A DNA stretch of 64,000 nucleotides from Sphingomonas cavernae (GTDB taxonomy: Bacteria > Pseudomonadota > Alphaproteobacteria > Sphingomonadales > Sphingomonadaceae). The stretch is from positions 808,501 to 872,500 of the forward strand of contig NZ_QYUM01000003.1 in assembly GCF_003590775.1 (NCBI RefSeq). The letters run 5' to 3'. The translations under genes were made by a program, and so were the position numbers. Within the stretch, counting starts at the first letter, position 1; each line of letters begins with the position of its first letter. Below are positions 6,809 to 44,137 of this stretch, one piece after another. The notes beneath the pieces were generated by a model, which saw nothing but the letters and a program-made list of their open reading frames with translations, made no database searches and had not been told where the DNA came from.

Positions 6809-6934
6809 ATAATCATTACACTTGGCGCTGACGACCTGCAACGGTGACGCATCGCTGTATTCGCGAATGCCGGTAGCGCTTTGCGTTTGCTCTAGTATCT
6901 CAACAGGGGGCTTTCACAGGTGAGGCAGGCGGGA

Positions 6935-7960
6935 ATGTCGGGCAAAAAGCGTGCAACGATCGTCGATGTTGCTGAAGCCGCCGGCGTGTCGATGAAGACC
7001 GTCTCCCGCGTCTTCAACAACGAGCCCCATGTCCGCAAGGCGCTGAAGGACAAGGTGCTTCGTGCTGCAAAGGCGTTGAACTATCAGCCCAATGTCGTTG
7101 CCCAGGGATTGGTGGGCCGACGGTCCTATCTGATCGGGCTCGTCTACGAAAATCCAAGCCCCAACTATGTCGTCGAGCTTCAGCACGGAGCGCTCGACCG
7201 GCTTCATGGCGAGCGATACCGGCTGGTCGTGCTGCCGGTCGAATCCGTGGCAAATGTTGCGGGCAAAATGTTGGGGTTGCTGCGGTCCGCGGCGCTGGAC
7301 GGGGTCGTCCTGACTCCCCCGGCGTCGGACCATCGCCAGATCCTCGACGAGCTGAGCGAAAGCGGGTTTCCATTCGTGCGGGTTGCCCCCACGCGCTACC
7401 CGGATATCGGCCCGAGTACCATGACCGACGACGTCGCGGCGGCGTGTGACATGACCCGCTATCTGATCGAGCTGGGGCATCGCGACATCGGGCTCATCAA
7501 GGGCGATCCGACGCACTCGGCGACCGAGGCGCGGCTGTTCGGCTTCTCCAAAGCGCTGGCGGAGGCCGGAATCGCTCCACGGCTCGACCTCATCGAGCAG
7601 GGCATGTTCACCTATGAATCGGGGATCGAGGCAGCGCGGCGTTTGCTGGACCGCAGCGATCGGCCCACGGCCATCTTCGCGCAGAACGACGACATGGCGG
7701 GGGGCGCGATCATGGCGGCGCATGAACTGGACCTCGATGTGCCACGCGATGTTTCGATCGTCGGGTTCGATGACAGCCAGATCGCCAAAGTGACCTGGCC
7801 TCGCATCACGACGGTGCATCAGCCCGTTTATGAAATGGCGCGCTCAGCCACGGACATGCTGGTCGCGATGCTGGAAAACAAGCCATATGAGAACAAGCTC
7901 GAGCATCCCTATGAGCTTGTGGTCAGGCAATCGGCGGCCGCGCCCGGAAGCTCCGGATGA
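6935..7960 (+). CDS. LacI-family transcriptional regulator 1
   Basis: 341 residues from the ATG at 6935; a GTG five codons earlier is an alternative. The N-terminal helix-turn-helix (TIVDVAEAAGVSMKTVSRVF) is followed by the hinge and a periplasmic-binding-protein-like sugar-binding domain (about residues 62-341), with the usual IFAQNDDMAGGAIMAAHE and VSIVGFDDSQIAK segments. It overlaps the downstream GPH symporter by ATGA, so the pair is an operon. It probably senses a sugar or oligosaccharide and represses the TonB receptor locus via the palindromes at 9580-9631; ligand unknown. Confidence 0.93.
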   Translation: MSGKKRATIVDVAEAAGVSMKTVSRVFNNEPHVRKALKDKVLRAAKALNYQPNVVAQGLVGRRSYLIGLVYENPSPNYVVELQHGALDRLHGERYRLVVLPVESVANVAGKMLGLLRSAALDGVVLTPPASDHRQILDELSESGFPFVRVAPTRYPDIGPSTMTDDVAAACDMTRYLIELGHRDIGLIKGDPTHSATEARLFGFSKALAEAGIAPRLDLIEQGMFTYESGIEAARRLLDRSDRPTAIFAQNDDMAGGAIMAAHELDLDVPRDVSIVGFDDSQIAKVTWPRITTVHQPVYEMARSATDMLVAMLENKPYENKLEHPYELVVRQSAAAPGSSG

Positions 7961-9264
7961 TCACGCGGCGCCAGGAACTGAGCTATGCAGCCGGCGATGT
8001 CGGTTTCAATCTCATCTGGCAGTCGATCGAACTCTATCTGCTGTTCTTCTACATCGAGACAGCGGGCCTGCCATTGGCGGTAGCGGCCGGCATATTCCTG
8101 CTCGGCGCCATGGTCGACTGGCTCGCGGATCCAGTCATAGGGACATTGGCCGACAGGTTCGCGGGACGCTATCCGCTGCGCGTGTGGGTGCTGCTGAGCG
8201 GACCTTTTGCGGGGGTGGCGCTGGCTTTGGCCTTTTCGGTTCCGCCGCTCGCTCCCGGCCCGCTCGCCATCTACGCCGCCGCCACACATGTCCTTCTGCG
8301 CTTTGCCTATAGTTGCGGGAACATTCCCTATGCCGCGCTGACCGCACGGATGACCGATGATCCATTTGCGCACGCCAGACTGACCGGCGTCCGGATGCAG
8401 GGAGCGGCGATTGGCGGTCTTCTGGCGGCGCTGGTCTATGCGCTCGAATCCGCGTGGAGCGAGAGTGGGACGCACCAGTTCTTCATGGGAGCGCTCGTGC
8501 TGGGAATGCTCGCGCAGCCCTGTTTCTACATGACATGGGCGGGCGTGCGCGAACAGATTGTGACGGGACGTCCGCAGTCGCCGCTATCGATCGCGGGCGA
8601 GTTCCGGACCTACCTCACGATGGTCAGCCGAAGCGCGGAGCTTCGTCGCGTGCTCGCGACGATCCTTGCCGCAGGGCTGAGCACCACGGTGACCTTCAAG
8701 TCGATCCTCTTCCTGTTCGATCGCGATATGCAACAGGGAGCATGGGGGTATTGGGCGGCGCTTCTTCCCTCCATCGCGCTGCTGACGACGGCGCCGGTCT
8801 GGGTAGCACTCTCAAGGCGCCTGGGGCGAGCGCGCTCACTCGCGATTGCCGCTGCGATCCACTGCGCGGCTCTGTTGTTAATTGCGGTCATGCCCGCGCG
8901 TGACATGGGGTCGGTGACGCTGTTGCTGGCAATCGCGATTACCGCGAGCTGCGGCATGTCGGTGATGTTCTGGGCGCTGGTGCCAGCGGCAATCCAGGAT
9001 CTGGAGGCCGATCCGGGCTCGGAGCCATGCGCCGCGCGGGCATACGCATTATCGACCACCACCCGAAAGCTTGGCCAGGCCCTGGCGCCTCAGCTTATTG
9101 CGCTTAGTCTGGCGGTTACGCGCAGCGACGATGCTGCGAAGGGCGGCGGGTCCGTGATTCCCGCGCTTGTGGCCGGCGCCGCCGTGTGTCTTGTCATGAT
9201 GCTGCTCTATCGCCCCGGCAGGATGCGAAGCGACAGGGGGAACGGGCCGCCCGCCGCAGCGTGA
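7957..9264 (+). CDS. GPH-family (MelB-like) sugar:cation symporter
   Basis: 435 residues, about 12 transmembrane segments, inner membrane. The N-terminal LSYAAGDVGFNLIW followed by MVDWLADPVIGTLADRF is the signature of the glycoside-pentoside-hexuronide:cation symporter family (MelB, XynB/XylP-like). Members take up galactosides, xylosides or glucuronides with sodium or protons. It is translationally coupled to lacI 1 and lies upstream of TonB receptor 1, so it is the likely inner-membrane step for the oligosaccharide that the receptor imports. The exact substrate is not readable. Confidence 0.88.
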   Translation: MITRRQELSYAAGDVGFNLIWQSIELYLLFFYIETAGLPLAVAAGIFLLGAMVDWLADPVIGTLADRFAGRYPLRVWVLLSGPFAGVALALAFSVPPLAPGPLAIYAAATHVLLRFAYSCGNIPYAALTARMTDDPFAHARLTGVRMQGAAIGGLLAALVYALESAWSESGTHQFFMGALVLGMLAQPCFYMTWAGVREQIVTGRPQSPLSIAGEFRTYLTMVSRSAELRRVLATILAAGLSTTVTFKSILFLFDRDMQQGAWGYWAALLPSIALLTTAPVWVALSRRLGRARSLAIAAAIHCAALLLIAVMPARDMGSVTLLLAIAITASCGMSVMFWALVPAAIQDLEADPGSEPCAARAYALSTTTRKLGQALAPQLIALSLAVTRSDDAAKGGGSVIPALVAGAAVCLVMMLLYRPGRMRSDRGNGPPAAA

Positions 9265-9669: not shown

Positions 9670-12600
9670 ATGAAGACCCTGATGTCGACCTTCGCAATTT
9701 GCCGTTCGGCTTCCGTGATAGCTATTTCGACCTGCCTCGCTGCGCCATGCTTCGCGCAGGCCGAGGCGACACCCGTTGCCGACGAAGAGGAGATCATCGT
9801 CACGGGCATCCGCGCCAGCCTTGAGGCGGCAATGGATATCAAGCGCGAGTCGACGGGGGTGGTCGACGCGATCTCGGCGGAAGATATCGGCAAATTCCCC
9901 GACACCAACATCGCCGAGTCGCTGCAGCGCATTCCGGGCGTGTCGATCGACCGCGTGAACGGCGAAGGCTCGAAGGTGACGGTGCGCGGCTTCGGCCCCC
10001 AGTTCAACCTCATCACTCTCAACGGCCGCCAGCTTGCGACATCCAGCGTTGGCGTCGTGGGCGGCGACCAGGATGTTGAAAACCAGCAGCCCACCAGCCG
10101 CTCGTTCGACTTCTCGAACCTTGCGCCCGAAGGCGTTCGCACGCTTGAAGTCTACAAGACCGCCCGCACCGCACTGCCGTCCGGCGGCATCGGCGCCACC
10201 ATCAACATCAGAACGCAGCGTCCGCTGGAAACTGGCGAAACGGGTCTGCGCGGCAGCGTCGGCGCCAAGGCTGTTTACGATACAAGCGTGGATGGCTTCG
10301 AGGTCACTCCCGAATTCTCCGGCATTGTCGGCTGGTCCAACGATTCAGAAACCTTCGGCGTGTCGCTGTTCGGCTCTTATCAGGATCGCAAGAGCGCGGC
10401 TCCCAGCGCAACGTCGAACGACTGGAATATCCGGACGTTCGGGGACTTTCTCAATCCGGACAACGGTTTTGTCCGCCGGGACGGTACGACGCAGATCGAG
10501 AATGCGCCGACCGATCTCAGCACGCTCGTGGCGGTGCCCAATGACAGCCGCTATCACTATTCGGAATCGCAGCGCGAACGCATCAATGGGCTGCTGACGC
10601 TGCAGTTCAAGCCGATGGAAACGCTGACGCTGACAGCCGATGCGCTTTACGCGCAGAACAAGGTCAAGGAGGAGCGCTCTGACCAGGGGAACTGGTTCAA
10701 CCGCCCCTTCAACCAGGTGCGGTTTGACGACAATCCCACCGTGGCGACGACGGTTTTCCTTCAGGAAACGCTGACCGGGGTGAAGGACATCGGCTTTGAG
10801 CAGCAATATCGCGCGACCAAGTCCGATCTTTACTCCTTCGGTTTCAATGCGAATTGGGAGATCAGCGACGGTTTCACGCTGACCCTCGATGCCAACACGT
10901 CCAAGGCAAAGGACCGGCCCGATTCACCCAATGGCGCGAGCTCAACGCTGGTCGGAATTGGCGCTCCGGTCGTTTCGGCGCACTCGGTCGATTACAGCGG
11001 GGCCATCCCGGTTCAGGAATGGACGCTCAACGACGCGCTTCGCGGCAACAACAATGGCGTCCTCGACATCGGCGATTTGGGAACGCAGGTGGCGCGCACT
11101 GTCACCGCCCGTCAGGAGCATCGCATCAACCAGTTCGCCGCCGACCTGGGCTGGGAGTTCGATGGCGGCGGCCGTTTCGACCTCGGCGTGAACTATATCG
11201 ACTCCAAGATGGAGAGCCAGCGCAGCCAGACGCAACAGACGCTCGGCGACTGGGGCATCAATAATGTCGGCGACGTTTCGGCGCTTGCCGGCGACCTGAT
11301 CGAGCAGTTCTGCATGGCGTGCAAGTTCGATCACTACAAGCCCGGCAATGCGGCGATCGCCTTCCGCGGCAACGCGGTCGACCTTTATGAGGTGCTTTCG
11401 GCGGCGTACCTGACCGATGCCGATCCACGGGACCCCGACCTTGATGACGCTGATCCGAATACGCCGGGGCAACAAGGGCGTCCCATCGATGCTACGGCCG
11501 GCTTGGATGACGAGGTCAAGGAGAAGATCTGGGCCGGCTATGTCCAGTTCACCTGGAAGGGTGAGTTCATGGGGCGGCCGGCAGGCGTGGTCGCTGGTGT
11601 CCGCTATGAGAACACTAAGGTAACCTCCAATTCCTTGATCAGGCAGCCAGCCAGGATCGCGTGGGTTGCCGACAATGATTTCACGACAGTGCTTTCCGAC
11701 GATGTCGTGCCGATTCAGGCTGAAGGTGAATATAACAACCTTCTGCCGGCAATCGACTTCCAGATCGAGCCGATGGACAATCTCCTTGCGCGCGTGTCCT
11801 ACAGCCGGACGCTGGCCCGGCCCGACTATGGAAACCTGTTTGCGTCCGTGTCGGTCGATAACAACAACCCCAACCGGCCGACAGCGGCTGGTGGCGTCGC
11901 GACGGCCAACGCGGGCAATCCCAGCCTCAAGCCGCTCGTCTCGGACAATTTCGACGTGTCGCTTGAATGGTATTTCGACAAGTCCAGCTATATTTCGGCC
12001 GCATTCTTCTACAAGAAGGTGAAGAACTTCCCCGGCGCCGGCCAGGTGGAGCAAGAGCTGTTCGGTCTGCGTGACCCGAGCTCCGGCGCGGCCGGAACCC
12101 GGTCGGGCGCGGCATTGGCCGAGCTTCAGAGGCTCGGTCTCGATACCAGCGACGTGAACCTGTTCACGATGACGGCGCTTATTGTCGAGCAGGGTGGCGG
12201 CATCGATCCCACCACGGTCGCCAATGCTTCGGCCGTATTTCAGGCCAACCTGACCGGCGGCTCGCTTAACCAGACCTTTGTTGACCAGGTGCTGGGACGG
12301 ACGGATGTTATTGCGAACTCCTCTGATCCCTTGTTCAACTTCTCGGTGGACACGCCCGTCAACACCGAGACCGGCAACATTCACGGCTTCGAGCTTCAGG
12401 GTCAGTATTTCTTCGGAGACAGCGGCTTCGGCATCGCCGGCTCGTACACCAATGTGAACGGCGATGTGGGCTTCGATATCGGGGCCGATCCGAACACGGA
12501 CCAGTTCGCGCTGACTGGCCTTGCCAACAGCTACAATATCACCGGCATCTTCGAGAAATATGGCGTCTCGGCGCGTGTCGCCTACAACTGGCGCGACAAA

Positions 12601-12831
12601 TATCTGAGCCGGCTCAACCGTCAGGGGAGCCGGAACCCGGTGTTTGTTGCGCCATTCGGCACGCTGGACGTGAGCGTCACCTACGATGTCACCGAAAATA
12701 TCCAGGTGTCGTTCGAAGGGGTGAACCTGCTCAGCGAGCCGATCCGGACCTATGCCCGCGACAGGGACGAGTTGTGGTTCGCGCAAGAGCTGAGCCCGCG
12801 TTTCTACCTGGGGGCCCGGTACAGGTTCTGA
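9670..12831 (+). CDS. TonB-dependent receptor 1 (oligosaccharide-type)
   Basis: 1053 residues, outer membrane. Signal peptide about residues 1-31 (CFAQA), TonB box EIIVTG at 41-46, plug domain beginning with the conserved ISAEDIGKFPDTNIAESLQRIPG, and a long beta-barrel ending in an aromatic residue (FYLGARYRF). Length and plug motif match the sugar-importing TonB receptors of sphingomonads and Caulobacter rather than siderophore receptors. A Rho-independent terminator follows at 12853. Downstream on the same strand are SapC, cupin, halogenase-like and lactonase genes that typically accompany this receptor type. Ligand unknown; a plant-wall oligosaccharide is likely from context. Confidence 0.95.
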   Translation: MKTLMSTFAICRSASVIAISTCLAAPCFAQAEATPVADEEEIIVTGIRASLEAAMDIKRESTGVVDAISAEDIGKFPDTNIAESLQRIPGVSIDRVNGEGSKVTVRGFGPQFNLITLNGRQLATSSVGVVGGDQDVENQQPTSRSFDFSNLAPEGVRTLEVYKTARTALPSGGIGATINIRTQRPLETGETGLRGSVGAKAVYDTSVDGFEVTPEFSGIVGWSNDSETFGVSLFGSYQDRKSAAPSATSNDWNIRTFGDFLNPDNGFVRRDGTTQIENAPTDLSTLVAVPNDSRYHYSESQRERINGLLTLQFKPMETLTLTADALYAQNKVKEERSDQGNWFNRPFNQVRFDDNPTVATTVFLQETLTGVKDIGFEQQYRATKSDLYSFGFNANWEISDGFTLTLDANTSKAKDRPDSPNGASSTLVGIGAPVVSAHSVDYSGAIPVQEWTLNDALRGNNNGVLDIGDLGTQVARTVTARQEHRINQFAADLGWEFDGGGRFDLGVNYIDSKMESQRSQTQQTLGDWGINNVGDVSALAGDLIEQFCMACKFDHYKPGNAAIAFRGNAVDLYEVLSAAYLTDADPRDPDLDDADPNTPGQQGRPIDATAGLDDEVKEKIWAGYVQFTWKGEFMGRPAGVVAGVRYENTKVTSNSLIRQPARIAWVADNDFTTVLSDDVVPIQAEGEYNNLLPAIDFQIEPMDNLLARVSYSRTLARPDYGNLFASVSVDNNNPNRPTAAGGVATANAGNPSLKPLVSDNFDVSLEWYFDKSSYISAAFFYKKVKNFPGAGQVEQELFGLRDPSSGAAGTRSGAALAELQRLGLDTSDVNLFTMTALIVEQGGGIDPTTVANASAVFQANLTGGSLNQTFVDQVLGRTDVIANSSDPLFNFSVDTPVNTETGNIHGFELQGQYFFGDSGFGIAGSYTNVNGDVGFDIGADPNTDQFALTGLANSYNITGIFEKYGVSARVAYNWRDKYLSRLNRQGSRNPVFVAPFGTLDVSVTYDVTENIQVSFEGVNLLSEPIRTYARDRDELWFAQELSPRFYLGARYRF

Positions 12832-12852
12832 GGCCAAGGTCGCAAAGGGGGG

Positions 12853-12880
12853 CAAAGGCCGCTGTGCGCAGCGGCCTTTG
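12853..12880 (+). terminator. Rho-independent terminator after TonB receptor 1
   Basis: A perfect 11-bp stem (CAAAGGCCGCT / AGCGGCCTTTG) around a six-base loop, 21 bases after the receptor stop codon. The descending arm supplies only a short T-run, so readthrough into the sapC-like gene is possible. Confidence 0.75.
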
Positions 12881-13009
12881 TCCTGCCGGAATTGAGTGAA
12901 GCGTTATATTGGTTCATCATCGCGACTGCCGGCTCCCCATTGCGTCCGATATTCGGCCGCAATCGTGGACTGGCGGCAACGTAGGACGATCAAGGCCCGG
13001 GTGCTCCGC

Positions 13010-13750
13010 ATGACCAATATCGTGTTGCTGAACAATGTGGATCATCACGGTCTTCGCGTCGTCACGCGGCACGCCGCGCAGTTCGGGGACAGCGTCAACC
13101 AGATGCTGATCTTTCCCACCGAATATGACGAGGTTCAGCGGGAATATCCGATCCTGTTTCGCAAGGATGCGAACGGAGAGTTCCAGTCGGTCGCTCTGCT
13201 GGGTCTGGAACGCGATGAGAATCTGTTTCTCGGCGAGCATGGTTGGGAGGGGCGTTATGTTCCGGCGGTGCAGCAACGCGGTCCCTTCTCGATCGCGCTT
13301 CCCGCTGGTGACGACGCCGGCCGCGCGGAACCGATGATCCATGTCGATCTGGATGATCCGCGGATTAGCGATAAGAGCGGCGAACCGCTCTTTCTGCCCC
13401 ATGGCGGAAACGCGCCGCAGCTCGAGCGCGTCGCGGCGGCGCTCCGGACGATCTATTCGGGGCTTGAAGTCAGCAAACCCATGTTCGCGGCTTTTGAGGA
13501 GGCCGGGTTGATCGAGCCGGTCCTGCTGGAAATCAAGCTCAGCGACGCCGAACAGTATAATGTGTCCAACTATTACACCATCGGCGAGGACAGGCTGGCC
13601 GCACTCGATGCGGCATGGCTTGATCGGTTGCACCGGGGGGGATTCCTGCGCTCTGCGTTCTCGGTCGTCTCGTCGCTCCGCAATGTCAGCCGGCTGATCG
13701 ACATCAAGAATCGAAAGCGGGGCATTTCGGCGCCGCCTGTCGCAGCATGA
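13010..13750 (+). CDS. SapC family protein 1
   Basis: 246 residues from the ATG at 13010 (MTNIVLLNNVDHHGLRVV); the open frame extends 38 codons upstream, but that part has no family character. The SapC core is recognisable in LIFPTEYDEVQREYPILF, ALLGLERDENLFL and the GRYVPAVQQRGPFSI segment. The family is named after a Campylobacter S-layer-associated protein, but its biochemical role is unknown. In sphingomonads and Caulobacter it recurs beside TonB receptors with cupin_8 and halogenase-like genes, exactly as here. No signal peptide, so probably cytoplasmic. A second SapC lies at 54000-54770. Confidence 0.87.
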   Translation: MTNIVLLNNVDHHGLRVVTRHAAQFGDSVNQMLIFPTEYDEVQREYPILFRKDANGEFQSVALLGLERDENLFLGEHGWEGRYVPAVQQRGPFSIALPAGDDAGRAEPMIHVDLDDPRISDKSGEPLFLPHGGNAPQLERVAAALRTIYSGLEVSKPMFAAFEEAGLIEPVLLEIKLSDAEQYNVSNYYTIGEDRLAALDAAWLDRLHRGGFLRSAFSVVSSLRNVSRLIDIKNRKRGISAPPVAA

Positions 13751-13766
13751 GGATGATGCGTCACCC

Positions 13767-14798
13767 ATGGCGGGCCTGATGCGCACTACTCGCGAAATAA
13801 AAGGCCTGGCGCCCGATGCCATTCCTTACGGCGAACTGCTGGAGGCGCAGGAGCCGGTGATCCTGAAGGGAGTGGTGCGCCAATGGCCACTCGTCCAAAC
13901 GGGATACGAAGGCCCCGAGGCCGCGATGGATTATCTCCTGCCGTTCTACAATGGTCGCCCGATCGCGGGCTATACCGGGCGACCGGAGATCAAGGGGCGC
14001 TATTTCTATAATGACGACGTGAGCGGCCTCAATTTCGAGGGTGAGCGCGTGCCGCTCGACGAATATCTGGGACGCATCCGGGAGCATCTTCACCAGGCAG
14101 ATCCGCCCTCTTTCTATATCGGCTCCACCGATGTGGACGGCCATTTGCCCGGGCTCCGCAACGAGAATGAGCTCGTGCTCGATGATCCGATGTTCGCCGC
14201 CAATCCCCCGATAGTCAGCATCTGGATCGGCAACCGCACGATTGCGTCGGCGCATCATGACATGTCGAACAACCTGGCCTGCTGCATGGTAGGCCGTCGG
14301 CGTTTCACGCTGTTCCCGCCGGAGCAGATCGCCAACCTCTATCCCGGCCCGCTGGAGCCGACACCGGGCGGTCAGGTGGTCAGCATGGTTGATTTTGGCG
14401 CCCCCGATCTCGACCGCTATCCGCGCTTCCGAGAAGCGCTTGCGGCTGCCGAGGTCGCGGAGCTCGAACCCGGTGATGCGCTCTTCTATCCCGCGATGTG
14501 GTGGCATCAGGTGGAGGCGCTCGACGCCTTCAACGTCATGATCAACTATTGGTGGAACACGTCACCGGCGTTCATGGACACACCGATGACCACGCTGCTG
14601 CACGGGCTTTTGAGCCTGCGCGATCGTCCAGAGCCCGAAAAGCGCGCCTGGCAGGCCCTGTTCGATTATTATGTCTTTGGACCTGCCGGGCGCGCCGCCG
14701 AACATCTTCCTGAACATGCGCGCGGAAATCTTGCGCCGCTGGACGAACTCAAGGCGAGGCGGTTGCGCGCCTATCTGCTCAACCGGCTCAACAGATAA
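13767..14798 (+). CDS. Cupin_8 / JmjC-like 2-oxoglutarate-type oxygenase homologue
   Basis: 343 residues, cytoplasmic. The cupin-like fold resembles factor-inhibiting-HIF hydroxylases: EPVILKGVVRQWPL at residues 28-41, then the iron-binding HxD (His163, Asp165 in SAHHDMSNNL) and the distal His247 (YPAMWWHQVEAL). With all three ligands present it should bind Fe(II). Proteins of this fold hydroxylate protein or tRNA side chains, but the substrate here is unknown. It lies 16 bases after sapC 1 and directly before the halogenase homologue, with which it forms a recurrent cassette next to TonB receptors. Confidence 0.88.
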   Translation: MAGLMRTTREIKGLAPDAIPYGELLEAQEPVILKGVVRQWPLVQTGYEGPEAAMDYLLPFYNGRPIAGYTGRPEIKGRYFYNDDVSGLNFEGERVPLDEYLGRIREHLHQADPPSFYIGSTDVDGHLPGLRNENELVLDDPMFAANPPIVSIWIGNRTIASAHHDMSNNLACCMVGRRRFTLFPPEQIANLYPGPLEPTPGGQVVSMVDFGAPDLDRYPRFREALAAAEVAELEPGDALFYPAMWWHQVEALDAFNVMINYWWNTSPAFMDTPMTTLLHGLLSLRDRPEPEKRAWQALFDYYVFGPAGRAAEHLPEHARGNLAPLDELKARRLRAYLLNRLNR

Positions 14799-14815
14799 TG
14801 ACAGGGGAGGGGTGC

Positions 14816-16306
14816 GTGGCAGAACAGATCGTAAGGCGCGTCGTCATTGCAGGAGGAGGGACGGCAGGCTGGATCGCGGCAGTGGCGCTGTCGAAGCAAC
14901 TCGGGACGTTGCTGGACATCACGCTTGTCGAGTCCGACCAGATCAGGACCGTGGGGGTCGGCGAGTCCACGGTTCCGACCGCGCACACCTTCCATCACCT
15001 GATCGGAATCGACGAGCAGGAGTTCATGCGCGAGACCGGCTCAAGCTTCAAGCTGGGCATCAACTTCGAGAATTGGGGCGAGATCGGCGACCGTTACATC
15101 CATTCCTTTGGCACGCTCGGCAAATCGACATGGATGGCAGACTTTCATCACCTCTGGCTCCACGCGCGCGGGGAGGGGCTTGCGGGCGAGTTGGAGGACT
15201 ATTGTCTTGAGTTGCAGGCGGCCGAACAGGGGAAGTTCGCCACGTCTGATCAGTTCAAGGTCAACTACGCCTATCATCTGGATGCGGGCTATTATGCGCG
15301 GTATCTGAGGCGGCTCAGCGAGGCCGCGGGCGTCCGCCGCGTCGAGGGCAAGATCGCCTCGGTCGAGCAGCATCCCCAGACGGGGTTCATCCAGTCGCTC
15401 CTCCTTGAGTCCGGCGAGCGGATCGAGGGGGACCTGTTCATCGACTGCACGGGTTTTCGCGGGCTGCTGATCGAGCAGACGCTGAAGGCGGGCTTCGAGG
15501 ACTGGTCTCACTGGCTGCCCAACAACAGCGCGCTTCCGGTCCAGACGCGCTCCGTCGGGCCCGCAATGCCCTATACCAGCGCGATCGCGCACGACGCCGG
15601 CTGGCTGTGGCGGATTCCGCTCCAGCACAGGGTAGGCACGGGGCTGGTCTATTGCAGCGACTATCTCTCCGACGATGAGGCGCTCGCGAGGCTCCATCAG
15701 ATGATCGAAGGTGAGATTCTGATCGAGCCATGGTCCATACGCTTCAAGGCCGGGCGTCGCCTCAAGGTCTGGGAGAAGAACTGCATCGCGCTCGGCTTGG
15801 CGAGTGGCTTCGTCGAGCCGCTGGAATCGACCAGCATTCACATGATCATGATCGCGGTGACGCGGCTTATCCAGTTGTTCCCGTTCAACGGGTGCGACGA
15901 TGCGCTTCAGCGCCGGTACAACGACCTTTCGCAGAATGAGATCGAAAAAATCCGCGATTTCATTATCTTGCACTATCATCTCACCGAACGCGACGACAGC
16001 CCCTTCTGGCGCCAGGTCCGCACCATGGAAATTCCCGATACGCTTGCGCAGCGCCTCGCGCTGTTCGGGGAGAATGCGCATGCCTATCAGATCACCGAGG
16101 AACTGTTTCGAATCGATTCCTGGGTACAGGTCATGCTGGGACAGCGTCTTCGACCTGCAGGACATCACCAGCTCGGCCGGCTGATGCGTCCCGAGCAACT
16201 GCGCCAGGCATTGCTCGATCTCAAGACCAACATTGGCAAGGCCGTGGCGGGCATGCCGAGCCACCAGGATTTCCTCAACCGCTATTGCCCGGCAGCGATG
16301 GCCTGA
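14816..16306 (+). CDS. Flavin-dependent tryptophan halogenase family protein
   Basis: 496 residues from the GTG at 14816, preceded by AGGGGAGGG at ideal spacing; an ATG at 14798 overlapping the cupin stop is an alternative. The FAD-binding GGGTAGW (residues 13-19), a lysine at position 79 (GSSFKLGINF) corresponding to catalytic Lys79 of PrnA/RebH, the WLWRIP motif (263-268) and FVEPLESTSIHM are all present. A functional flavin oxidation/halogenation centre therefore seems intact. It is not in a natural-product cluster: its neighbours are a TonB receptor, SapC and a cupin oxygenase. The true substrate of this receptor-linked subgroup is, to my knowledge, not established. Confidence 0.9.
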   Translation: MAEQIVRRVVIAGGGTAGWIAAVALSKQLGTLLDITLVESDQIRTVGVGESTVPTAHTFHHLIGIDEQEFMRETGSSFKLGINFENWGEIGDRYIHSFGTLGKSTWMADFHHLWLHARGEGLAGELEDYCLELQAAEQGKFATSDQFKVNYAYHLDAGYYARYLRRLSEAAGVRRVEGKIASVEQHPQTGFIQSLLLESGERIEGDLFIDCTGFRGLLIEQTLKAGFEDWSHWLPNNSALPVQTRSVGPAMPYTSAIAHDAGWLWRIPLQHRVGTGLVYCSDYLSDDEALARLHQMIEGEILIEPWSIRFKAGRRLKVWEKNCIALGLASGFVEPLESTSIHMIMIAVTRLIQLFPFNGCDDALQRRYNDLSQNEIEKIRDFIILHYHLTERDDSPFWRQVRTMEIPDTLAQRLALFGENAHAYQITEELFRIDSWVQVMLGQRLRPAGHHQLGRLMRPEQLRQALLDLKTNIGKAVAGMPSHQDFLNRYCPAAMA

Positions 16307-16365
16307 AGCGCGCCGGGAAAGAGCCGCGCGCCTTCCGCCTCGCTCAGCACAAGGACCATTGTCGC

Positions 16366-17391
16366 ATGAGCCCGTTGATACGGTCGCGTCGTCAGTTGCT
16401 CGGCGGCCTTGCAGCATGCGCGCTGGCCGGCCCCGCTCTCGCCAAAAAGCCGCAGCATGTCGGCGGCATCAAGCGCATGGACGCGCGACTCGACGCCATT
16501 ATTGACCCGTCTCAGCCCATCGAGATTCTGTCGGAAGGCTATCGCTGGGCGGAAGGCCCGGTTTGGGTCGAGCGCGGCGGTTATCTGCTGTTCTCTGACG
16601 TGCCCGCCAATGTCGCTTATCGCTGGTCGTCGGGGCGAGGCGTCCAGCCTTTCCTGACGCCCTCGGGTTTGGCGGGCGCGATCCCGCCCGGCGTTCGCGA
16701 AGCCGGGTCCAACGGCCTTGCCATCGACGGCGCCGGTCGGCTGGTCCTGGCCGATAGCGGCACGCGCGCGATCGCCACGATTGATCTCGCGACGCGCCGG
16801 AAGATGATTCTTGTCGATCGCTATGAGGGTAAGCGTTTCAACAGCCCCAACGATCTCGCCATCGCGCGTTCGGACGCGATCTATTTCACCGATCCGCCCT
16901 ATGGGCTCGACAATGGAGACGAGTCACCTTTGCGCGAATTGTCCTTCAACGGCCTCTATCGCCTCGCACCCGACGGATCGCTCGCGCTTCTCGACGGCAG
17001 TCATCGGCGGCCCAATGGCGTCGCGCTGTCACCCGATGAGCGCACGCTGTATCTCGCGTTGTCCGAAGAAAAACGCCCGGAGGTGCTTGCCTATTCGCTC
17101 GACGCGCGCGGCTTTCCTACGGGCATGCGCCGGTTCCGCGACATGCGGTCCGAGCTGAAAATGGGATGGCCAGGCCTTCCCGACGGCATCAAATGCGATC
17201 CTGCGGGCAATGTCTTTGCTACGGGTCCCGGGGGGCTGCATGTCTGTTCGCGCGAGGGGCAATTGCTCGGTATCGTCATGACCGGCAAGCCGATCGCAAA
17301 TTGCGCCTTTGGCGAGGACGGTCGCTCGCTATTCCTGACATCAAGCGACATGCTCGCGCGGATCCGCCTGAAGCGCGGTCGCGGGCGCTGA
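16366..17391 (+). CDS. Exported SMP-30/gluconolactonase-family protein (Tat signal)
   Basis: 341 residues from the ATG at 16366, with AAGGA ten bases upstream. Residues 1-27 form a twin-arginine-type signal (SRRQLLGGLAACALAGPALA), so the enzyme acts in the periplasm. The rest is a six-bladed propeller with EGPVWVERGGYLLFSDVPAN, FNSPNDLAIARSDAIYFTDPPYG and RRPNGVALSPDERTLYLA, holding the metal-binding Glu, Asn and Asp of SMP-30 lactonases. It probably opens a sugar lactone. It closes the TonB receptor/SapC/cupin/halogenase cluster and ends five bases before the converging GH3 gene. It is distinct from the cytoplasmic XylC-like paralogue at 43254. Confidence 0.9.
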   Translation: MSPLIRSRRQLLGGLAACALAGPALAKKPQHVGGIKRMDARLDAIIDPSQPIEILSEGYRWAEGPVWVERGGYLLFSDVPANVAYRWSSGRGVQPFLTPSGLAGAIPPGVREAGSNGLAIDGAGRLVLADSGTRAIATIDLATRRKMILVDRYEGKRFNSPNDLAIARSDAIYFTDPPYGLDNGDESPLRELSFNGLYRLAPDGSLALLDGSHRRPNGVALSPDERTLYLALSEEKRPEVLAYSLDARGFPTGMRRFRDMRSELKMGWPGLPDGIKCDPAGNVFATGPGGLHVCSREGQLLGIVMTGKPIANCAFGEDGRSLFLTSSDMLARIRLKRGRGR

Positions 17392-17396: not shown

Positions 17397-19925
17397 TCAA
17401 GGTGCTGGCGCTGCGGTGCCACAGGGCAAGACGTCATCGGCGACCGTGCCGAGCGCGACCCGCGAAATGCTCAAATCCATCCGGCCAGCCGTCGTCAGGC
17501 GAAACGGTGCGTCCAGCCGCGCCATGTCAGCGCCCCCGCGCGCGAAGCATTTGAGGGGAATGCCCGCGGTGCGCCATTGTCCGGGCTTGATCGTGTCCGC
17601 GAAGCGCAAGGACGCGGTGCCTCCGCAATCGTTGCCGCACCGTGCGCCCAGCATGACGTCCTTCGTGGGCATGCCGTCGATGCGCATGGTGATGAGCAGC
17701 ATCACATCGCCATTGGTTTCGCGCGTGACGTCCACGGGCGCATGTGTGACGAGTTCGACCGTGGCGGCGCCGTCTCCGCTCCAGACAAAGCGGCGCGCAC
17801 CCTCCTGCGTCAGATGATTGACGGCAGTCACGCGCACGCGTCCGCCGGCGGCTGTGACCGGGGTGGTCGTGATCCGTGTGGTGTCGGCCTTTCCGTCGGT
17901 CACCTGGAGGGACCAGGAGGCGATCGGCAGGCCATTGTCGAAATAGAGACCCGTCGCGGCTTGATCGGCGGACACACCGGGATCTTCGGAGAGCGCGACG
18001 AGGGTTCCGCTGTCGGTCGTCTTGAGTCCATAGCCGAGCGGGAACAGGCTTGTGCCGTCCGCAGCGGCTGTACGCGGCCACGTATAGCCGAGCCGGCCCT
18101 GAAACTCATAGGCCGGGTCGCCGTCCGTCTTTCGGAACAGCATATCGGCGATGCCGCCGCCTTCGGAACCCGGCAGCCACGCAGCGACAAAGGCATTGGA
18201 GGCGTTGAGCTCGCGGTTCATCCAGAGCGGGCGCCCAGATATGAAGACCGCGACCACGGGAATGCCGTCGGCGCGCAGGCGGCGCATTGCGCCCAGTGCA
18301 CGGTCGTCGCCTTTCAGGCGAAGCGATTTTATGTCTCCCTGAAATTCCGCATAGGGCGTTTCCCCGAAGACGACGATCGCCGCATCGGGCTTTTCGCGAT
18401 AGCCGCCGTCGACGGACAGGGTTGCGGTGCCGCCCCCCGCTGACACCGCGTCGCTGATACCCTTCCAGATCGACGTGGCCTTGGGAAAGCGGGCATTGGT
18501 CACCCCTGTGCCTTGCCAGGTCAGCGTCCACCCGCCCGATTGCCGCCCGATATCGTCGGCTCCGTCTCCGACGACGAGAATTTTCTTGTTGCGGGCAAGC
18601 GGTAGCAGCGCGCGTTCGTTCTTGAGCAGCACAAGCGATTTGCGCACCGCTTCGCGTGCGAGCGCGCGGTGCTCGGCGCTGCCGAGGAGATCGAAGCGCC
18701 CTGACAGTGCCCGCTGCGAGGGACGACCCGCCTCGAACAGGCCGGCGCGGATCTTGACGCGGAGGATATTGGAGACAGCGTTGTCAAGGCGCGTGGTCGA
18801 AACGGTGCCGTCTTTCACCTGCGCAACAAGGCTGTTCCATAGTGGTTTCCAACTGTCGGGGGCCATATACATGTCCAGCCCCGCGTTGATCGCCTGAGGG
18901 CAACTGGCATTGGTGCAGCCGGCGACCTGCCCATGCGCATTCCAGTCGCTGATGATGAAGCCGCCAAATCCCATGCGCTTTCGCAAGACGTCGGTCAGCA
19001 GGCCCTTGTGCCCGGTCAGCTTCTCCCCGTTCCAACTGGAAAAGCTCGCCATCACGGTCTGCACCCCCGCGTCGATGGCGGCGACATAGGGTGCGCCATG
19101 GATGTCGCGCAGCGCCTCCTCGCTGATCCGGGCATCGCCCTGGTCACGCCCTTCGAAGGTGCCGCCGTCCGCGAGGAAATGCTTGGTGCTGGCAAGCACA
19201 TGCGGCCCCCCAAGAATCGGGGCCTTTCCGGGTGCTCCCTGCAGCCCCTTTATGAAGCGGCCGACATAGCTGGTCACGAGCTTTGGGTCTTCGGAATAAC
19301 CCTCATAGGTCCGTCCCCAGCGGACGTCCTGCGGGACGGTGACGGTGGGCGCAAAGGTCCATTCCATACCCGTTGTGCGCAGTTCCACGGCGGTTGCGGC
19401 CGCGATCCGTTCCAGAAGATCGGGATCGCGTGCCGCGCCCAGCCCGATATTGTGCGGAAATATGGTGGCGCCGACGATGTTGCTGTGTCCATGCACCGCA
19501 TCGGTGCCCCAGATAATGGGTATCGCGGCTCGTCCGCCCGTCTTGTCGACCGAGGCATCGTAGAACGCGTCGGCCAGTGCGAGCCATTTTTCGGCGGGCG
19601 CGAACTCGTCGCCGCCGGGCGCGGAATTGCCGCCGTTAAGGATCGAGCCGAGATGGTAACGCCGAACGTCGTCGGGGGTGACGCTGGCAATATCGGCCTG
19701 CACGACCTGACCGACCTTTTCCTCGAGCGTCATCATTGCGAGTAGCGCCGCAATGCGCGCCTCGAGCGCGGGATCCGGCTGATAGGGCCAATGCGGCCGC
19801 GGCCAGATTTCGGGATGAACTATGGGCGCTGGCCCGGTCTGCCCGTTTGCCGATGCGACTGTTGCGACGGCAAGGACGGCTGTCACGGCGAAGACAGAGG
19901 CGAGGGGCGCGGCTCGGAATGCCAA
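17397..19925 (-). CDS. Glycoside hydrolase family 3 enzyme with C-terminal accessory domain
   Basis: 842 residues, exported (signal peptide about 1-29). The start is a TTG at 19925 with GGAGAGG about ten bases upstream; no ATG is available before the conserved domain. GH3 N-domain: LEEKVGQVVQADI, AIPIIWGTDAVHGH, DVRWGRTYEGYSEDP, and the nucleophile Asp in GFIISDWNAHGQV. The GH3 C-domain begins around LVLLKNERALLPL and ends with the GFGYGLK-like turn. The last about 170 residues look like a beta-sandwich with CGNDC, as in ExoP-type beta-glucan/beta-xylan exo-hydrolases. An exo-1,3/1,4-beta-glucosidase or xylosidase is likely. Its own promoter and operator lie at 19988-20013. Confidence 0.92.
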   Translation of the reverse strand: MAFRAAPLASVFAVTAVLAVATVASANGQTGPAPIVHPEIWPRPHWPYQPDPALEARIAALLAMMTLEEKVGQVVQADIASVTPDDVRRYHLGSILNGGNSAPGGDEFAPAEKWLALADAFYDASVDKTGGRAAIPIIWGTDAVHGHSNIVGATIFPHNIGLGAARDPDLLERIAAATAVELRTTGMEWTFAPTVTVPQDVRWGRTYEGYSEDPKLVTSYVGRFIKGLQGAPGKAPILGGPHVLASTKHFLADGGTFEGRDQGDARISEEALRDIHGAPYVAAIDAGVQTVMASFSSWNGEKLTGHKGLLTDVLRKRMGFGGFIISDWNAHGQVAGCTNASCPQAINAGLDMYMAPDSWKPLWNSLVAQVKDGTVSTTRLDNAVSNILRVKIRAGLFEAGRPSQRALSGRFDLLGSAEHRALAREAVRKSLVLLKNERALLPLARNKKILVVGDGADDIGRQSGGWTLTWQGTGVTNARFPKATSIWKGISDAVSAGGGTATLSVDGGYREKPDAAIVVFGETPYAEFQGDIKSLRLKGDDRALGAMRRLRADGIPVVAVFISGRPLWMNRELNASNAFVAAWLPGSEGGGIADMLFRKTDGDPAYEFQGRLGYTWPRTAAADGTSLFPLGYGLKTTDSGTLVALSEDPGVSADQAATGLYFDNGLPIASWSLQVTDGKADTTRITTTPVTAAGGRVRVTAVNHLTQEGARRFVWSGDGAATVELVTHAPVDVTRETNGDVMLLITMRIDGMPTKDVMLGARCGNDCGGTASLRFADTIKPGQWRTAGIPLKCFARGGADMARLDAPFRLTTAGRMDLSISRVALGTVADDVLPCGTAAPAP

Positions 19926-19987
19926 AGTTCTTTTCCTCTCCAGCAGATGCGCGCCGCTGACGGCGCTATCATCGAACGCGTCATCTT

Positions 19988-20013
19988 TGACAACGTTGCC
20001 AATGAAGAGTCAA
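19988..20013 (-). promoter_or_regulatory. Operator and -35 element for the GH3 gene at 17397
   Basis: TGACAACGTTGCCA (19988-20001) is a near-perfect palindrome with an AACGTT core. On the minus strand it lies just downstream of a TTGACT -35-like hexamer (20008-20013), that is between -35 and -10. The position suits repression by a LacI-family protein. Confidence 0.5.
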
Positions 20014-20067
20014 CTTATCTATTGCTTGAAATTGCGCGGTTTCGTCCTGGGTGCTGCTGAGGTCTCG

Positions 20068-21528
20068 CTACAAAACAAGCGCGGCGAGCGCGCCGCGTTC
20101 GAACAGCCTGTTCAGATGCATGGATAGAATGTCGCGCAGACGGCCGTCGGCGGCCAGCGAGGGCGGAAAGATCGCTTCGATCGAGAGCAGCGCGTCGACC
20201 TGATCGCGAGGTGTGGAGAGGCCAACCAATCGGCCGGCGGTCACCTCGGCGAGCGGATCGTCGACGGCGAAGTCTGTGCCCGCATCGTCACGCCCGACCT
20301 GCCAGCGCATCCATGCCGCCACCGCGAGCGCGAGGCGATCGATCGATTGGCCGCGCTCGAGCCGCGCCGCGATTGGGGCCAGAAGCCGCTGCGGCAGCTT
20401 CTGCGAACCATCCATCGCGATCTGGTGCGTCCGATGCTGAAGCGCGGGGTTGGCGAAGCGCGCCATCAGCGCCTCGCGATATGCGGCAATGTCGAGCTCC
20501 GGCGGTGGCGAAAGCGTCGTTTCGGCCTCGTTCCACAGCGCCTCGACAAAGGCGCGACCTTCAGGGCGGGCGACGAACTGATCGACGAACGCGATCCCCG
20601 CGAGGCCGCCGAGATAGGCGATACCCGAATGCGCGCCGTTGAGCAGCCGCAGCTTCGCTTCCTCCCAGGGCGCGACTGTCGCAGTGAGCTGGACGCCGAG
20701 CGCTTCGAAATCGGGGCGGGGACCACTGAACCAGTCCTCGATGACCCATTGCGTGAAAGGCTCGGCCTTGACCATTGCACGATCCTCGTCTCCGAGCCGC
20801 TGAGCGAGCGCAACGCGCTCATCCTCGGTGGTAGCGGGCACGATCCGATCGATCATCGTCTGCGGAAAGGCGATCGCTGTCTCGATCCATCGCGCGAGGT
20901 CAGGATCATGCCGCCGGGTGACGCCGAGCACCGCCGCCCGCAACCGCTGGCCATTATGCGGCAGGTTGTCGCACGAAATGATCGTGAGCGGGTCCAGCCC
21001 GCGTTCGCGCCTCAGCGCCAGCCCTGCAACAAGAAAACCGGGCGCGGTGCGTGGCACCGCGAGCGACGCGAGGTCAGCCGCAAGATCGGCGTCGCTCTCG
21101 ATCAGCCCGCCCGTTGCGGGATCGAGCTTATAGCCCTTTTCCGTGATGGTGAGCGTGACGATATGCGTGTCGGGGCTGGCGAGCGCTTCGATGACCGCGA
21201 CAGGATCGTTCGGCGCCACAAGCACGTCGCCTACCGCGCCGATCACGCGAACCGACTGGCTCGCGCCGTCGCGCACGACAAGGCTGTAGAGTCCGTCTTG
21301 CGGGTTCATCTGCTCGGCCACGTCGGGCGACCGAAGCGAAACACCGCGCACGCCCCAGCGCATATCGCCCCGTCGCGCCGCATCATCGAAATAGACGGCC
21401 TGGTGCGCGCGGTGAAAAGCGCCGATGCCGAAATGCACCACGCCATATTTGAGTAATGCGCGGTCATAGCCGGGACGCTCGACATCGGCGGGAAGCGCAT
21501 CGAGCGTGCTGTTCGCGAGGCGGCTCAC
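20068..21528 (-). CDS. uxuB: Mannitol dehydrogenase family: fructuronate reductase (UxuB-like)
   Basis: 486 residues, GTG start overlapping the uxaC stop (GTGA). Long-chain mannitol-dehydrogenase family: N-terminal nucleotide-binding VVHFGIGAFHRAHQAVYFDD and the catalytic KLRLLNGAHSGIAYLG with Lys, Asn and His in place. The family reduces D-fructuronate, tagaturonate or fructose. Its position directly after uxaC and in one operon with manD supports fructuronate to D-mannonate with NADH; mannitol dehydrogenase is the fallback. Last gene of the minus-strand glucuronate operon. Confidence 0.9.
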   Translation of the reverse strand: MSRLANSTLDALPADVERPGYDRALLKYGVVHFGIGAFHRAHQAVYFDDAARRGDMRWGVRGVSLRSPDVAEQMNPQDGLYSLVVRDGASQSVRVIGAVGDVLVAPNDPVAVIEALASPDTHIVTLTITEKGYKLDPATGGLIESDADLAADLASLAVPRTAPGFLVAGLALRRERGLDPLTIISCDNLPHNGQRLRAAVLGVTRRHDPDLARWIETAIAFPQTMIDRIVPATTEDERVALAQRLGDEDRAMVKAEPFTQWVIEDWFSGPRPDFEALGVQLTATVAPWEEAKLRLLNGAHSGIAYLGGLAGIAFVDQFVARPEGRAFVEALWNEAETTLSPPPELDIAAYREALMARFANPALQHRTHQIAMDGSQKLPQRLLAPIAARLERGQSIDRLALAVAAWMRWQVGRDDAGTDFAVDDPLAEVTAGRLVGLSTPRDQVDALLSIEAIFPPSLAADGRLRDILSMHLNRLFERGALAALVL

Positions 21529-24268: not shown

Positions 24269-24282
24269 GTCGCTCTCTCCGC

Positions 24283-25494: not shown

Positions 25495-25508
25495 ATTGCG
25501 GTATCCGG

Positions 25509-27905: not shown

Positions 27906-27909
27906 CGCC

Positions 27910-30303: not shown

Positions 30304-30364
30304 GAAGCCTCCCTCTCCCGGGCGGCGAGCGCCCGTTTCAAAACATCTTTGCGATGTTCTCTAT

Positions 30365-30404
30365 TGATAGCGCTAACATGATATGCTCTTCATGGGCTTG
30401 TCAA
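30365..30404 (-). promoter_or_regulatory. Promoter and LacI-type operator between the GH3 operon and GH67
   Basis: On the minus strand a perfect TTGACA (30399-30404) and TATCAT (30378-30383) are 15 bases apart, a slightly short but good promoter for the GH3/manD/uxaC operon. The near-palindrome TGATAGCGCTAACA (30365-30378) abuts the -10 element. The same site lies 86 bases before the divergent GH67 start and could control both directions. Confidence 0.6.
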
Positions 30405-30463
30405 TGCCCGTCGAGACGGGAGGTGCACGCCGGCAACCGGTGGCGTCGTTGGAGAGGGACGAT

Positions 30464-32614: not shown

Positions 32615-32656
32615 GTTAGCGCAAACAAACGCGCGTATCAGCCATAAATAACGATA

Positions 32657-32705
32657 TTGACATTGCCATGCAAGCTCGATAGCCCTTGTAATGTGACCGC
32701 TAACA
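32657..32705 (+). promoter_or_regulatory. Promoter element and LacI-type operator before TonB receptor 2
   Basis: A perfect TTGACA (32657-32662) with only a weak -10 at 17 bases, followed by TGTGACCGCTAACA (32692-32705). The latter differs at two positions from the symmetric TGTTAGCGCTAACA and shares its right half with the 30365 site. It lies 58 bases before the receptor start. Confidence 0.45.
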
Positions 32706-32762
32706 TAAGCGGATACCCAATAACAACGACTGTTCAGCAGTCGAACAGGAGGGGAAGGAACG

Positions 32763-37117: not shown

Positions 37118-37138
37118 AGCGCCATGGTAGCGTTACCA
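37101..37138 (+). promoter_or_regulatory. xylD promoter with overlapping operator TGGTAGCGTTACCA
   Basis: TTGACA at 37101-37106 (inside the 3' end of lacI 2), 17 bases, then ATGGTA at 37124. The near-palindrome TGGTAGCGTTACCA (37125-37138) covers the -10 position. The xylX promoter on the other strand has the same TTGACA, 17-18 base spacing and TGGTAGCG, so the two appear co-regulated. Confidence 0.6.
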
Positions 37139-37178
37139 TAAAAAGCGTCCGGCGCGCCGCCGGAGTGTGGAGGATTGC

Positions 37179-38957: not shown

Positions 38958-38978
38958 TGCGCTGGCTTTTCGCTGCCT

Positions 38979-43191: not shown

Positions 43192-43253
43192 CCTTGTCGG
43201 CTCCCTCCCGTTGTGCGCGCCATGGTTTTTTGTCTGGGCGCTTTGATTGCTTT

Positions 43254-44135: not shown

Positions 44136-44137
44136 CG

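Follow-up and report, generated by a model that had tools for sequence, protein, structure and literature searches.

A sugar-type TonB-dependent receptor (TBDR), a SapC-family protein, a JmjC-type cupin and a flavin-dependent halogenase probably form one functional module in the 64,000-nucleotide stretch of Sphingomonas cavernae DNA analysed here (the window), and their coupling is seen across genomes: among the named loci whose cupin most resembles the window cupin (the top 80 in a ranking of at least 584 relatives), SapC is present in 80/80, a TBDR in 78/80 (the two loci without one both lie at contig ends) and a halogenase in 77/80. Since the four genes stay together across many bacteria, the enzymes are probably dedicated to this receptor. 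These counts, together with a receptor bound to a single clade, support the proposal of the first-pass annotation that the genes constitute a dedicated system. In the reading that we favour, with a probability of about 40%, cytoplasmic enzymes tailor their own receptor before its export, perhaps at tryptophans of the outer loops; both the substrate and the chemistry are what we infer.

Gene content of the locus

All five genes that had been proposed at 9670-17391 were recovered by profile searches, all on the plus strand (Table 1), and a glucuronoxylan locus encloses the four of them that make up the cassette (9670-16306). The profile scores place the receptor among the TonB-dependent receptors (TIGR01782, 662 bits against a cut-off of 310, with plug and barrel Pfam domains), the second protein in the SapC family (PF07277, 212 against 28.9), the third among the JmjC/cupin_8 oxygenases (PF13621, Cupin_8, 257 against 27.4) and the fourth in the tryptophan-type flavin-dependent halogenase family (PF04820, 629 against 21); the lactonase matched PF08450 (SGL) with 134 bits. 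The Pfam scan covered 38 ORFs, a part of all those in the window. The AlphaFold2 model of the receptor has a pLDDT of 83 and matches known TonB-dependent transporters in Foldseek (E 1e-27). The SapC model is confident (pLDDT 95.5) and, when compared with the PDB (best E 0.41) and with a set of viral models (best E 0.13), found no match; it is to these two libraries that our term unrecognised fold refers. A start for SapC at GTG 12896 was rejected, as its homologues begin at ATG 13010 instead.

Table 1. Features of the cassette and its surroundings in the window
Feature	Position	Strand	Evidence
LacI regulator and GPH-type sugar symporter, upstream glycan-locus context	6920..9264	+	Profile searches
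TonB-dependent receptor of the cassette clade, 1053 aa	9670..12831	+	Plug and barrel Pfam; TIGR01782; AlphaFold2; Foldseek
SapC-family protein, 246 aa	13010..13750	+	PF07277; homologue starts; AlphaFold2
Cupin_8/JmjC-type Fe(II) 2-oxoglutarate oxygenase, 343 aa	13767..14798	+	PF13621; FIH match; triad
Flavin-dependent halogenase, GTG start	14816..16306	+	PF04820; solved relatives; Lys/Glu; start region
SMP-30/gluconolactonase-type protein, signal-like N-terminus, neighbour and non-member	16366..17391	+	PF08450
Glucuronoxylan context: three GH3, fructuronate-reductase-type dehydrogenase, UxaC, MR/MLE enzyme, GH67, second TBDR	17397..35909		

The genes are tightly spaced, with 16 bp between SapC and cupin, an overlap of cupin and halogenase and 178 bp between TBDR and SapC, a gap that has space for a very short ORF only. 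When the block itself was inspected by the criterion used for RiPP clusters, SapC, cupin and halogenase proved too close together in the window to leave space for a precursor-peptide gene. The second TBDR of the window has no adjoining halogenase and places among the unlinked receptors on the tree.

Conservation of the coupling

The gene order of the window recurs in 69 of the 80 named loci, another five (L191, L240, L246, L248 and L249) keep the content in an altered order, and the content is also kept across classes. Among 118 genomes of the same taxonomic order, with up to six candidates scored in each, the cassette receptor forms a sharply separate clade of 30 members, below which the score drops from 909 to 564 bits; 30/30 members adjoin SapC and cupin, and no receptor of this clade without them was found in those genomes. 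A TBDR is also present in 39/40 further halogenase regions. These regions, and also the receptors compared as linked or unlinked, were hand-picked from the listed matches (for the halogenases the 150 best, with at most 12 candidates scored per genome) and are not a random sample. On the receptor tree, halogenase linkage changes 7 times, against a shuffled mean of 37. Of 134 matches in one search, 130 were used and four partial ones dropped, and from the cupin search the 61 best were used and 36 weak partial ones dropped. The co-occurrence of TBDR, SapC, cupin and halogenase goes beyond chance, and because the coupling is both very strong and clade-specific it argues for a dedicated system.

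Three genomes hold two or three complete cassettes, so that every paralogous receptor comes with a separate set, an arrangement that would be odd for enzymes making one diffusible product. The surroundings were compared by BLAST clustering at E 1e-25 with overlapping frames merged, and several unnamed clusters resemble antisense frames; the commonest nameable neighbours outside the core were LacI (19/80), glycan genes and DUF6445 (11/80). The distance matrices of the four families correlate at 0.72 to 0.80, enzyme with enzyme about as highly as enzyme with receptor, and these mirror correlations cannot tell direct action from joint inheritance.

Active sites and solved relatives

The active sites are intact, as had been proposed, with the catalytic residues kept in 81/81 cupins (80 relatives plus the window) and 75/75 halogenases. 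The predicted iron triad of the cupin, His163, Asp165 and His247, was confirmed in 17/17 aligned homologues and then in the larger set of 81. Arg178 is likewise present in 81/81 and aligns with the Lys with which FIH binds 2-oxoglutarate, which makes Arg178 the putative 2-oxoglutarate-binding residue of the cupin. The best PDB sequence match of the cupin is FIH (E 2.7e-18, limited to cupin residues 158-268), followed by JMJD5 (9e-17) and JMJD7 (1e-9).

In the halogenase, both expected motifs are present, the glycine-rich FAD loop and W269-L-W271-R-I-P. The lysine takes number 85 if translation begins at the ATG at 14798, which overlaps the cupin stop, and number 79 if it begins at the in-frame GTG 14816, just upstream of which lies AGGGGAGG, as had been claimed for a start with Shine-Dalgarno support. 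Position 79 is the catalytic residue number in PrnA and RebH; that number carries no weight alone, and the alignment to solved halogenases does. In the 75 cassette halogenases (the window copy and the 74 of 77 relatives of alignable length), Lys85, Glu343, Gly19, Gly21, Gly24, Trp269, Trp271 and Ile273 are present in 75/75 and Pro274 in 72/75; halogenase ORFs outside the cassette entered this comparison if they had at least 480 aa, shorter diverged ones being excluded. Lys and Glu are the residues needed for halogenation. The nearest solved halogenases are Xcc4156 (6y1w, E 1.8e-173, 581 bits), 9luq (1.6e-160, 538 bits) and BrvH (6frl, 4e-131, 441 bits), against about 255 to 300 bits for the halogenases of free tryptophan, the class of PrnA, RebH and PyrH; all three share the motifs of the window protein, and the same three structures are matched at E < 1e-100 by one cassette halogenase each from Xanthomonas and Rheinheimera and by two non-cassette ones. 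SapC and cupin have no signal-like N-terminus, the hydrophobic stretch with which the halogenase begins corresponds to the FAD motif, and the cassette enzymes look cytoplasmic.

Conserved tryptophans of the receptor

Three receptor tryptophans, Trp342, Trp528 and Trp665, are each present in 79/79 sequences of the named set and in 28, 29 and 28 of 29 members of the same-order cassette clade, and the corresponding columns hold Trp in 4, 1 and 0 of 46 halogenase-less receptors. In the AlphaFold2 model all three lie in loops or where strands end, on what is presumably the outer face. No Trp column common to all halogenase-linked receptor clades was found, and the 18 receptors of clade B lack Trp528 and Trp665. 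Private conserved columns are Trp in 3/17 cases in clade A, 2/14 in C and 1/45 in B, and in 1/125 in a less diverged unlinked clade. A Trp528 column common to A and C was not trusted because the loop alignments between these clades are gappy, and lists of invariant loop residues in the named set were left unused, gaps having been counted as letters at some columns. Tryptophan is conserved in diverged sets anyway, and plain sugar stacking would likewise give invariant outer-loop Trp.

Three cassettes (L207, L216 and L219) have no local halogenase, and their receptors retain all three tryptophans. They were rejected as natural knock-outs, because their genomes carry 14, 12 and 15 other PF04820 matches. 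The only receptor change found in all three, Asn956 to Ser, was also discarded as a mark of halogenase loss; it is probably a lineage effect, since L217 and L220 share it and have a halogenase.

Discussion

If the receptor is the substrate, as we tentatively propose, the enzymes would act in the cytoplasm on the nascent chain, ahead of Sec export, with SapC as a possible adaptor that presents it. The cupin, using Fe(II), 2-oxoglutarate and O2, would hydroxylate a side chain, and the halogenase, using FADH2, O2 and halide, would brominate, chlorinate or oxygenate the indole of one or more outer-loop tryptophans, for which Trp342, Trp528 and Trp665 are candidates. The altered aromatic residues could then tune the grip of the exposed vestibule on an oligosaccharide, the window cassette presumably serving a receptor for xylo-oligosaccharides. 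Modification of the receptor fits the sequence evidence: both enzyme families have precedents with protein or peptide substrates, and the window block leaves no space for a precursor-peptide gene from SapC to halogenase, both of which we count in its favour, and the tryptophans shared by halogenase-less cassettes and the absence of Trp528 and Trp665 from clade B count against it. We hold more loosely, as a possible but rather unlikely generalisation, that this is a dedicated maturation of outer-membrane transporters, in which every receptor of the clade is encoded together with SapC as an adaptor whose fold is unrecognised and with the JmjC hydroxylase and Trp halogenase, which edit its aromatic ligand-binding loops in the cytoplasm before export, and that the principle extends, with halogenases alone or in pairs, to the other receptor-linked halogenases of the order.

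Among the precedents, FIH is a protein hydroxylase, and FIH, JMJD5 and JMJD7 belong to the family of the cupin by sequence and keep the facial triad, although the alignable core is of about 110 to 130 residues only. Structure 5uao, which we take to be MibH, matches the window halogenase at E 2e-59. SrpI, likened here by function, is described in the available part of its report as brominating Trp in ribosomal peptides, a precedent for Trp halogenation in a ribosomally made chain (PMC10858898). The substrate of SrpI and MibH is, however, a short precursor peptide with a leader, whereas no precursor gene was seen inside the cassette block and its linked protein is a receptor of 1053 aa. For Xcc4156 and BrvH, a peptide substrate has been proposed and the stabilisation of Trp is said to be lacking (PMC7336383, in excerpt). 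The accessible portions of the Xcc4156 and BrvH papers (PMC7336383, PMC5945002) report structures and test-tube activity, give no native substrate and do not mention TonB or SapC; the brvH gene adjoins a second halogenase gene (PMC5945002, same portion), like many non-cassette halogenases of the window's order. Carbohydrate-utilisation loci of Xanthomonas and Caulobacter resemble the window in joining a TBDR to a LacI regulator, a symporter and glycoside hydrolases, and the main text of the 2007 paper on such loci (PMC1790865) mentions neither halogenase nor SapC.

The constancy of the enzymes beside changing glycan genes bears on whether they act instead on the cargo, an aromatic group on the oligosaccharide or co-imported with it being halogenated or hydroxylated after uptake. 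The TBDR does adjoin catabolic genes in the window, and BrvH halogenates free indole according to the available text of PMC5945002; against this, the glycan neighbours differ among the 80 loci (ExoP-type GH3 in 16/80, GH67 in 7/80, uronate genes in 9/80, none of the chosen markers in 51/80), the enzymes look cytoplasmic, paralogous receptors keep separate enzyme sets and none of the Pfam matches in the 38 scanned ORFs of the window is named as a feruloyl esterase, and we regard action on the cargo as unlikely. The more specific suggestion of a feruloyl group on the glycan found no support, given these varying neighbours and a SapC and cupin without signal-like N-termini. The same several sets per genome also speak against a loop like that of a siderophore, with a small aromatic compound, halogenated or hydroxylated, that serves as signal or co-ligand and returns through the receptor after secretion. 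Tryptophan halogenases in general use free small molecules and TBDRs import small compounds of that kind, and the DUF6445 gene after the halogenase in 11/80 loci could encode a further tailoring enzyme; among the nameable neighbours of the 80 loci, however, any other families for biosynthesis or export are infrequent, and we find such a compound quite unlikely.

A halogenase homologue that does not halogenate in vivo, and that together with the cupin hydroxylates or otherwise oxidises the receptor or another protein, would agree with the oxygenase family of the cupin and with the low halide that we assume for soil, as well as with the weak activity of BrvH on indole, which its authors doubt to be the native substrate (PMC5945002, in part). 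It accords poorly with the Lys and Glu of halogenation being kept in 75/75, with the preference of BrvH for bromide (same source and portion) and with the description of Xcc4156 as a flavin-dependent halogenase (PMC7336383, in part), and is in our opinion rather improbable. Least probable of these alternatives, and in our view very doubtful, is an inherited block held together by co-regulation or linked transfer, whose enzymes have no direct action on the receptor. Blocks do move along with glycan loci, correlations are similar among all four distance matrices, and cupin relatives of 39 to 57% identity occur in 10 plasmid records, in one of which SapC is annotated next to the cupin; yet the content survives changes of order in five loci and spans classes, and the set is tied to a single receptor clade, to the exclusion of the family's unlinked receptors.

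Should receptor tailoring extend to the other receptor-linked halogenases, a purpose would be found for many orphan tryptophan halogenases in bacteria without halogenated products. With the receptor as substrate, outer-membrane proteins would be seen to mature in a new way; if the receptor is not the substrate, the coupling still indicates an aromatic cargo specific to it. The tight, clade-specific coupling narrows the search for the substrate to few proteins and few residues.

The lactonase, which had been counted as part of the cassette, was not borne out as such: we treat it as a neighbour because only 4/80 relatives have one, which in two of them (L218 and L253) directly follows the halogenase in the same orientation. 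In the window its start is the ATG at 16366, and its signal-like N-terminus contains RR.

Genes of the cassette and their surroundings

Features of the window, with the cassette genes and the adjoining lactonase in order (profile matches)
Feature	Position	Strand	Remark
Block of five co-directional genes	9670-17391	+
Gene 1, TonB-dependent receptor (TBDR)	within 9670-17391	+	TIGR01782
Gene 2, SapC-family protein	start 13010	+	start placed where homologues begin
Gene 3, Cupin_8 (JmjC-type) protein		+	stop overlaps ATG at 14798
Gene 4, flavin-dependent halogenase	better start GTG 14816	+	PF04820
Gene 5, SMP-30/gluconolactonase (SGL)-type lactonase	start 16366	+	N-terminus signal-like
IlvD/EDD-type dehydratase, aldose epimerase, aldehyde dehydrogenase, SASA-type acetylesterase	within 36029-46445
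Second SGL lactonase	43257-44180
Sulfotransferase-family gene	49512-50423		downstream of the glycan locus
Second SapC	54000-54770	+	free-standing
Long putative ORFs	570-2435; 50544-52475		no Pfam match

A SapC start at 12896 was ruled out, the homologues beginning at 13010. For the halogenase, AGGGGAGG lies directly 5' of the GTG at 14816, which is favored over the ATG at 14798 and places the catalytic lysine (Lys85 from the ATG) at residue 79, as the first-pass annotation had proposed. Profile searches of the whole genome returned one PF04820, two SapC and two Cupin_8 matches. The surroundings of the cassette are a glucuronoxylan locus, with LacI, a GPH symporter, three GH3, a fructuronate-reductase-type dehydrogenase, UxaC, an MR/MLE enzyme, GH67, a second TBDR and LacI, an IlvD/EDD dehydratase, a second SGL protein and an aldehyde dehydrogenase; the genes at 36029-46445 look like an oxidative pentose route.

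A receptor-clade-specific unit with conserved enzymes

The TBDR, SapC, cupin and halogenase form a four-gene unit specific to one receptor clade, in which the oxygenase and the halogenase are catalytically conserved. Linkage of these genes beyond single loci, and their nearness to receptors, had been proposed for a genome-wide count, and both emerged from a survey of 118 genomes belonging to the same order as the window (probably Sphingomonadales, to judge by its named relatives). With 130 SapC matches, 61 strong cupins, the halogenases listed and a limit of 6 kb, 27/130 SapC (24 genomes) had a cupin as well as a listed halogenase in range, 98/130 had neither, and 33 of the 61 cupins had a SapC. 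A TBDR adjoins the block in all 31 SapC-cupin loci retrieved, lying upstream and co-directional in 29 (eight of these with an extra halogenase between receptor and SapC) and divergently in two. A profile built from 12 cassette receptors and run over the same genomes yielded 30 receptors scoring at least 909 bits, the next score being 564; all 30, including the 18 that had not built the profile, adjoin SapC and cupin by coordinate. They are spread over 26 genomes, three of which hold two or three complete cassettes.

The predicted active-site residues are conserved. The cupin iron triad (His163, Asp165, His247) is kept in 81/81 aligned sequences, as are Arg178, Asn169 and Asn260, and the sequence matches in the PDB are FIH, JMJD5, C2orf60, JMJD7 and a fly protein. 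In the cassette halogenases the lysine, Glu343 and, from the WLWRIP motif, Trp269 and Trp271 are each present in 75/75 and Pro274 in 72/75; the top PDB matches are 6y1w (Xcc4156), 9luq and 6frl (BrvH). When the window's enzyme was set with 74 receptor-linked halogenases of at least 480 aa from outside the cassette (n=75), the lysine was kept in 71 and the glutamate in 72, the four lacking the lysine being low-scoring members of halogenase arrays.

A scan of the cupin alignment against 84,980 species, one genome each, gave at least 584 relatives, the best 80 of which were analyzed (L-numbers denote individual loci). Among these best 80 of at least 584, SapC is present in 80, a TBDR in 78 (the other two lying at contig ends), a halogenase in 77 and the lactonase in four; the order TBDR-SapC-cupin-halogenase holds in 69 and is altered in L191, L240, L246, L248 and L249, L259 has an additional halogenase, and L213 and L267 are truncated where their contigs end. 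L207, L216 and L219 are Sphingomonas cassettes without a local halogenase; their genomes have 14, 12 and 15 PF04820 matches elsewhere. The same best 80 comprise Alphaproteobacteria (54), Gammaproteobacteria (23) and three unplaced records, the orders including Sphingomonadales (38), Caulobacterales (11), Lysobacterales (10), Chromatiales (6), Cellvibrionales (5) and Hyphomonadales (4). Their glycan neighbors vary (ExoP-type GH3 16, GH67 7, uronate genes 9, none 51), a count made with window proteins as the only queries, so that other hydrolases escape it. A DUF6445 (PF20043) gene at L242 (12632-13327, 269 bits) has counterparts that bring the total to 11 of the best 80 (L242, L245, L246, L249, L250, L254, L257, L258, L260, L265, L266), each positioned next to a halogenase; one of these records is unplaced and the others are Gammaproteobacteria. 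It is possibly a fifth member of the unit in part of its range.

The AlphaFold2 model of the cassette SapC (pLDDT 95.5, 57 sequences) had no Foldseek match in the PDB (best E 0.41, TM 0.15) or among viral models. In 25/31 loci (the 30 best-scoring of the order plus the window's second SapC), no receptor, cupin or halogenase lay closer to SapC than 1.5 kb, and therefore a free-standing form of the family exists as well. The second SapC of the window, 21 to 22% identical to that of the cassette, has genes for an FAD-linked oxidase and an N-formylglutamate amidohydrolase in its vicinity.

Halogenases outside the cassette

In 40 regions around non-cassette halogenases, chosen by hand as were the receptor sets, a TBDR is present in 39 (the exception being L304) and as a rule adjacent; by a rough estimate that assumes about 50 receptors, a random gene would lie within 700 bp of one in about 6% of cases. 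In a FastTree phylogeny of 123 receptors (29 from cassettes, two of a second SapC-cupin type, 46 linked to a halogenase, 46 unlinked), halogenase linkage required seven changes, the mean of the shuffles being 37.3 and 0/500 of them as low, and the cassette receptors fell on one side of a single branch (support 99), FastTree warning of long branches among the unlinked rows. L124 and L125 represent a second receptor clade, with a divergent SapC-cupin pair and the halogenase beside the receptor. L127, L128, L129, L292, L297, L306 and L307, with halogenases and Cupin_8 at the receptor and no SapC in the stretch covered, are a SapC-free architecture. A diverged, low-scoring halogenase-like gene lies between or beside intact halogenases in L281, L289, L292, L297, L298, L299, L300, L305, L307 and L316, lacking the catalytic lysine in L289, L297, L300 and L316; it is possibly an inactive partner subunit.

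The receptor as a candidate substrate

We consider it possible, with a probability of about 40%, that the receptor itself is the substrate of the cassette enzymes. Cupin and halogenase would then act on the receptor chain while it is still in the cytoplasm, and SapC would serve as a putative adaptor. Halogenation of Trp within a ribosomal chain has a precedent in SrpI (PMC10858898), and a peptide substrate is proposed for BrvH and Xcc4156 (PMC7336383). Our search of the open literature found no paper joining a receptor, SapC or an operon and a halogenase, and an earlier description may exist elsewhere; the available parts of PMC7336383, PMC8269204, PMC5945002, PMC1790865, PMC7142613, PMC12615548 and PMC10858898 describe no receptor with a linked halogenase. 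PMC4911050 and PMC7333567 were set aside, the matched words there referring to a clay and to a siderophore receptor that is unrelated.

Candidate residues on the receptor are Trp342, Trp528 and Trp665, kept in 79/79 receptors (78 of the best 80 relatives and the window), with Asn669 in 78/79 and Asp670 in 77/79. Among the cassette receptors of the window's order the three tryptophans occur in 28/29, 29/29 and 28/29, and among the 46 unlinked receptors in four, one and none, respectively. In the AlphaFold2 model (pLDDT 83), Trp342 ends strand 319-342, Trp528 stands at the beginning of loop 525-606 and Trp665 closes the leading arm of the long hairpin 636-665/671-702. Long loops on the outer side usually alternate with short turns on the inner one, a pattern which suggests that all three face outside. 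Against tryptophan as the target, two of the three are absent from halogenase-linked clade B (18 receptors), where no enrichment of private Trp was seen (1/45 private columns), and sugar-binding proteins commonly carry Trp on their outer side. A Cys-x-x-Cys (TBDR residues 548 and 551) lies in a large presumed outer loop and is found in 68% of the 79 cassette receptors.
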